DNA from: Rhizobiales bacterium 32-66-11
GTDB lineage: Bacteria > Pseudomonadota > Alphaproteobacteria > Rhizobiales > Xanthobacteraceae
DNA: 64,000 bases
Reading direction: 5' to 3'
Assembly (NCBI GenBank): GCA_002304505.1
Contig: NCEH01000048.1
Coordinates: forward strand, 1-64,000
Below the pieces are notes generated by a model that saw only the letters and a list, made by a program, of their open reading frames with translations, made no database searches and was not told where the DNA came from. Below, one piece after another: positions 2,605 through 3,358 of the stretch. Position numbers and translations under genes: made by a program. Each line of letters starts with the position of its first letter. The stretch's first letter is position 1.

Positions 2605-2704
2605 TGGCTCGGTCCTTCTCGGGTCTCGGCCGGTCTCCCGCGCGCATCTGGCGTCTTAAGGGAGGGCGGGCCGCACTTGCGCTGATGTCTCGTTCAGATC
2701 CGAT

Positions 2705-2748
2705 CCCCTGAGTGCCCAGGCGCGCAGCGCCCGGCCGGCCCTCAGGGG
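2705..2748 (-). promoter_or_regulatory. Leader hairpin of leuA (candidate attenuator stem)
   Basis: On the minus strand, CCCCTGAG (2748-2741) pairs with CTCAGGGG (2712-2705). An inner GC-rich stem (CCGGGCGC with GCGCCTGG, one G-T pair) extends it. The stem begins at the stop codon of the candidate leucine leader peptide, so a ribosome stalled on the leucine codons would block its formation. I do not see a clear intrinsic terminator with a T-run between here and leuA, so the mechanism is open. Confidence 0.45.
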
Positions 2749-2795
2749 CGGCTAAGGAGAAGGAGCGCGCGCAGAATGAGAGCGTTTCCCGCCAC
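2742..2795 (-). CDS. Candidate leucine-rich leader peptide of leuA
   Basis: A 17-codon frame starting with GTG encodes (V/M)AGNALILRALLLLSRP. Six of its residues are leucine, and four of these are consecutive. This is the layout of the known enterobacterial leu leader peptide, which also has four tandem leucines. Its stop codon overlaps a large hairpin, and it lies about 140 bases upstream of leuA on the same strand. The leucine codon run TCCTTCTC (minus strand) is exactly complementary to GAGAAGGA, which contains the leuA ribosome binding site at 2613-2620. No strong ribosome binding site precedes the GTG, which is the main weakness. Confidence 0.45.
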   Translation of the reverse strand: MAGNALILRALLLLSRP

Positions 2796-3019: not shown

Positions 3020-3358
3020 ATGAAGGCTCGCCTGTCCGCCTGCACCCTCGCCGGGCTGCTTCTTTCCGGGCTGCTTCTTGCCGCCTGTACCACCACCTCA
3101 TCCCCGCCGCCTGCGGTGGCGCCGGCCGCCCCCGCCGGAGCCGCCGATTCGACCGCAGGCGCGGCCAGTTGCACCTCGGCCCTGGCGAATTTCATGAAGG
3201 TGGTGGATGCGGACGCGGCGAGCGGCAATCTCAACCCGAGCGTCTTCAAGCGAATCTCTTCCGACCTCGCGACGCCCAAGGCCACCTGCGCCGCCGGCAA
3301 GGATGGCGAATCGCGCAGCCAACTCGCCGCCATCCGCGCCCGCTACGGCTATCCGTAG
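3020..3358 (+). CDS. Small secreted lipoprotein, unknown function
   Basis: The product has 112 residues. It starts with a basic N-terminus and a hydrophobic stretch that ends in the lipobox LLAAC at about residues 19-23, so Cys23 is probably lipidated after signal peptidase II cleavage. A Pro/Ala/Thr-rich linker follows. The C-terminal domain has two further cysteines that could form a disulfide in the periplasm. I chose the ATG at 3020 over the longer open frame because it places the signal peptide at the N-terminus and GGGAG lies just upstream. The family is not recognised. It is divergent from leuA. Confidence 0.75.
   Translation: MKARLSACTLAGLLLSGLLLAACTTTSSPPPAVAPAAPAGAADSTAGAASCTSALANFMKVVDADAASGNLNPSVFKRISSDLATPKATCAAGKDGESRSQLAAIRARYGYP

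Follow-up and report, generated by a model that had tools for sequence, protein, structure and literature searches.

The leuA leader of Rhizobiales bacterium 32-66-11 consists of a short leucine-rich reading frame and a hairpin, and we consider it likely that together they attenuate the translation of leuA in response to leucine. The leucine codons can also pair with the leuA ribosome-binding site, and therefore a leucine-starved ribosome would probably turn leuA on. A conserved leader frame, a covarying hairpin and a species-specific complementarity between leader and Shine-Dalgarno sequence are each supported by comparison of related leaders.

Layout and conservation of the leader

In the window (the whole 64,000-nucleotide stretch of DNA analyzed) leuA encodes a 2-isopropylmalate synthase of 528 residues on the minus strand (1018 to 2604, ATG at 2604). 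The initial annotation had put four consecutive leucine codons upstream of it, followed by a hairpin that contains a stop codon, and all of these lie on the minus strand where it placed them. The leucine codons CTC CTT CTC CTT (CTCCTTCTCCTT, 2765 to 2754) are joined by a five-base linker, ANNNG (2753 to 2749), to the hairpin (2748 to 2705), which is built from CCCCTGAG (2748 to 2741) and CTCAGGGG (2712 to 2705) with an inner stem, a GGCC bulge and an upper stem inside these arms. The TGA stop codon (2744 to 2742) is in the 5' arm. The eight-base match between TCCTTCTC (2764 to 2757, the anti-Shine-Dalgarno arm of the long-range base stem) and GAGAAGGA (2620 to 2613), which covers the leuA Shine-Dalgarno sequence, was also confirmed. 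The genome contains one exact copy of the motif.

The leader had been read as 17 residues from a GTG at 2795, which is the tail of a longer frame. Judged by its relatives, GTG 2846 is very probably the true start codon, which gives a leader of 34 residues (VSSHRTNCAGPSSRTPWVAGNALILRALLLLSRP, with GTG read as Met; 2846 to 2742, ending ALILRALLLLSRP). GTG-TCG-TC at 2846 is kept in ten of ten aligned leaders of the window-genus, Aquabacter and Xanthobacter type, the Ancylobacter leader has GTG-ACG at the start-codon position, and frame, start and C-terminus are retained in relatives. Upstream lies a candidate promoter (CTTGTG-N16-TCTATC, 2915 to 2888) that was not detected by a sigma-70 scan; by eye, CTTG...TATNA recurs at the corresponding position in relatives. 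A divergent small open reading frame with a lipoprotein-like signal (MKARLSACTLAGLLLSGLLLAACTTTSS) is found beside the leader (3020 to 3358, plus strand).

An in-frame leader with C-terminal leucine codons and NCCCCTRR was present at 105 of 110 leuA loci of Hyphomicrobiales and close relatives (102 distinct), and a covariance model recovered the element at three of the other five loci. Of 135 dereplicated leaders, 117 have an ATG-initiated frame that crosses the leucine codons in frame 0; the counts for the other frames are 33 and 22. The frame is kept across Hyphomicrobiales and many other alphaproteobacterial families. Lack of conservation of the frame, which the initial annotation had named as evidence against its proposal, was not what we found. 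Of 101 leaders, 100 have CTT as their final leucine codon; in the comparison with codon usage 90 of 91 do, and there CTT makes up 3.5% of the leucine codons within the same leuA genes. This CTT is followed by A (99 of 101), any three bases, G (98 of 101) and CCCC (101 of 101). The element core can be written CUN-CUN(or CGA)-CUU-A-NNN-G-hairpin, with the stop codon usually in the 5' arm. The CUU-A, five bases 5' of the hairpin, is almost never altered, whereas the neighboring leucine codons drift.

Covariation confirms the hairpin as a genuine RNA structure. Among 88 sequences, 95.6% of cells are paired and ten of 15 pairs show changes on both sides (6.0 in shuffles); the covariation score was reached by none of 500 shuffles. 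The stop codon and its stem partner change together (TGA/TCA, TAG/CTA, TGAT/GTCA). Another family has the stem CCUCUGAG/CUCAGAGG and Leu rather than Pro as last residue, and one leader has the stem CCCUUG/CAAGGG. No Rfam family matched, including Leu_leader (RF00512).

In a few leaders (L163, L179, L180, L181 and others) the hairpin arm has TGG where the stop codon would stand, and the peptide extends past this position. Two other modes of action were rejected. A +1 frameshift at CUU-A was discarded because the shifted frame does not stay open consistently as far as leuA: it reaches the start in 39 of 102 leaders, compared with 35 for the −1 frame. Arrest at a Pro-stop pair was discarded because the terminal Pro is replaced by Leu with stem compensation in one family and the stop codon by UGG in those few leaders.

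Complementarity of the leucine codons to the leuA Shine-Dalgarno sequence

For the 135 dereplicated leaders, duplex energies were computed between the leucine region and the downstream windows of the same leader, and were compared with those that the leaders of other species gave with these windows. The downstream scan peaked at leuA −20 to −3 (−12.7 kcal/mol for own and −10.9 kcal/mol for cross-species pairs; z −8.7). The background was about zero past +25 and mostly −2 to 0 upstream of −35, and a smaller signal (z about −3 to −4) covered the opening codons of leuA. Permutation z-scores are inflated by sequence relatedness, which the positional controls share. When the leader side was scanned against a fixed Shine-Dalgarno window, the peak fell at e−30 to e−13 (e being the end of the stop codon), which are the leucine codons (z −9.0), with little signal elsewhere. 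Both subgroups of leaders gave the signal, those with a leucine run (z −6.2) and those with CUN-CGA-CUU-A (z −5.0). In the region 3' of the hairpin (e+42 to e+65) complementarity to the Shine-Dalgarno sequence was lower for a species' own leader than across species (z +3.4 and +3.8), as if competing pairing were avoided.

Pairing was retained in shifted registers in L093 (TCCTTATCA/TGATAAGGA), L094 (GTCCTTAGA/TCTAAGGAC), L105 (TCCTTCTCG/CGAGAAGGA), L170 (CTTCGGCTG/CAGCCGAAG), L216 (TGGTCCTTCG/CGAAGGACCA) and L201 (TCCTAATC/GATTAGGA). The pairing is weak (four to five contiguous bases) in a sizeable minority of leaders, for example L058, L082, L099 and L101, and for about a third of the leaders a synonymous choice of codons would often give equal or better pairing.

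Folding had been suggested as a check in the initial annotation. The whole-leader fold in the window is unexceptional (z −0.9), and the fold containing the base stem lies 2.4 kcal/mol higher in energy than the predicted minimum. Masking the leucine codons, to mimic a stalled ribosome, raised the predicted openness of the window's Shine-Dalgarno sequence from 0.52 to 0.91. Over the set of leaders, masking them increased openness by 0.106, the most of any leader window tested, the effect being about 0 to 0.03 away from the codons. Sequence covariation supports sequestration of the leuA Shine-Dalgarno sequence by the leader's leucine codons.

Proposed mechanism and alternative explanations

The transcript would begin upstream of the short leader gene. 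With ample leucine, ribosomes would complete the leader peptide and depart, the hairpin would re-form, and the leucine-codon stretch would pair with the leuA Shine-Dalgarno sequence, and for this reason leuA would be translated poorly. When charged leucine tRNA is scarce, we infer that a ribosome would stall on the leucine codons and cover the sequestering strand, and the Shine-Dalgarno sequence so freed would allow more LeuA to be made. The hairpin five bases after CUU-A would draw the two remote strands together. It would probably be positioned at the mRNA entrance of the ribosome during decoding of the CUU codon and would help to retain the ribosome there. A ribosome stuck awaiting leucine would thus probably switch leuA on. 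In the translational attenuators of the ermC and cat type a ribosome stalled on the leader likewise frees a sequestered Shine-Dalgarno sequence. The mechanism proposed here shares this release step and differs in that the signal would be amino acid scarcity rather than a drug, and in that the codons themselves sequester.

The match could be incidental, given that pyrimidine-rich leucine codons always resemble the complement of purine-rich binding sites, a caution already raised in the initial annotation. For this genome taken alone the caution stands, and the pairing there is barely beyond chance. AAGGA is common to Shine-Dalgarno sites, UCCUU is frequent in the leader, and the same GAG extension, giving the same 8-mer, is found at 36 of 928 AAGGA-N4-10-ATG sites genome-wide (about 4%). 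By duplex energy in the GC-rich window, 17 of 36 long open reading frames match or beat leuA, because the leader stretch used contains a GCGCGCG run, and single-genome specificity was set aside as not decisive. The comparative data make the case strong and do not bear the caution out: cross-species swaps keep the generic match yet pair more weakly, the signal peaks at both partners, and several leaders with non-standard registers or codons still give matches of 8–10 bases. We therefore regard chance complementarity as highly improbable.

Transcription attenuation, in which the hairpin would itself terminate transcription or stand before a terminator, and translation of the leader would determine whether polymerase continues, for example through Rho, has the classical layout in its favor, a leader peptide rich in the cognate codon followed by a strong GC hairpin. 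Rho-dependent variants require no U-run, and the long unconserved stretch 5' of leuA could load Rho. An intrinsic terminator was nevertheless rejected, as 124 of 135 leaders have no U-run 3' of the hairpin (at most three T within the next eight bases) and a terminator scan detected none. Termination of either kind leaves the species-specific complementarity of leucine codons to Shine-Dalgarno sequence unexplained, and we judge it unlikely; the initial proposal of translational rather than terminator-based attenuation is supported. For the LEU element of Actinobacteria, Seliverstov et al. (PMC1262725) put forward a protein-binding RNA whose codons are no leucine sensors; for the present element such a role seems less probable still. 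The near-invariant CUUA, G, CCCC and GGGG do go beyond the needs of pairing, some lineages (the LRL group) retain two leucine codons only, and the Streptomyces experiments cited in PMC1262725 are inconsistent with classical attenuation. Against this, nearly all leaders retain an open frame that includes the leucine codons, no candidate protein was identified, CCCC/GGGG is altered with compensation in another family, and L179 carries a CCCU variant. Leucine-dependent translational attenuation remains the reading that we favor, with translation of leuA as the most likely output.

Distribution and relation to known leaders

The covariance model matched 100 of 386 sampled Alphaproteobacteria genomes. 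In a 397-genome phylum sample it matched 72 genomes, all Alphaproteobacteria, with zero matches outside the class. All fetched matches lie near a LeuA match. Among 15 genomes with no match, 13 have no LeuA of this type, and ten of 12 checked genomes lacking this type, including Rhizobiaceae-like ones, have the other type, TIGR00970. Several leuA genes of the TIGR00970 type (L249, L250, L252 and L255) have distinct leucine-rich leaders with CUUA-NNN-G directly 5' of an unrelated hairpin, the spacing from CUUA to hairpin again being five bases; L250 has two copies of CGACTTA. In L167 and L201 the first gene 3' of the element encodes not LeuA but a small protein starting MKTINLAEKLSLFD and MHKINLSEKLSQFS, respectively, which we take to be cupin-like.

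The enterobacterial leucine attenuator (Leu_leader, RF00512) also has a leucine-rich leader peptide upstream of a leu gene, whereas the alphaproteobacterial element neither matches that family nor has its U-run terminator. Much closer is the LEU element predicted in Actinobacteria by Seliverstov, Putzer, Gelfand and Lyubetsky (2005, PMC1262725), in which the codons of a leucine leader and the leuA Shine-Dalgarno sequence form a base stem that encloses a conserved pseudoknot or an alternative hairpin. Both elements lie upstream of leuA and encode a leader peptide with a run of leucine codons, and the same base stem is found here, weak in a minority of species. Four leuA leaders of Actinobacteria that contain a run of leucine codons were examined, and two of them, those of Nonomuraea and Microbacterium, have the string CUUCUUA-GCUG-CC before a hairpin, again with the five-base spacing. 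The alphaproteobacterial model R1 matched the Microbacterium and Nonomuraea leaders (E 0.0016 and 0.0026), where the string in common consists mostly of leucine codons and CUUANNNG, and gave no match in Nocardia or Tsukamurella. The alphaproteobacterial element differs in its phylum, its hairpin sequence, the stop codon usually placed in the 5' arm and, in most matches, the type of LeuA. It has one nested covarying hairpin, and no pseudoknot stood out among the top covarying column pairs.

In the accessible literature, to which our search was confined, the LEU element was the only direct precedent, and an earlier alphaproteobacterial description may exist. The best reading of the sequence comparisons is that the LEU-type architecture extends beyond Actinobacteria to a second phylum, where the hairpin is a different one. 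More tentatively, Alphaproteobacteria and Actinobacteria may share one ancient leucine-sensing mRNA design, made up of leucine codons, CUU-A-NNN-G, a hairpin and a base stem to the leuA Shine-Dalgarno sequence, which lies upstream of two different LeuA types. In it the near-invariant CUU, fixed five bases 5' of the hairpin, would be a built-in site of ribosome pausing and would define which codon senses leucine; we think this possible but rather doubtful. The start codon, the class-wide extent of the element, the near-invariant CUU-A and the actinobacterial precedent all go beyond the initial annotation.

By comparison of leaders, these results give evidence for a long-range pairing hitherto only predicted in Actinobacteria, together with a covariance model and clear targets for compensatory mutations. 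They also pose a sharp question, why the CUU-A near the hairpin stays fixed while the surrounding leucine codons drift. In much of the Alphaproteobacteria, translation rather than transcription termination may be the level at which the first committed step of leucine synthesis is regulated.
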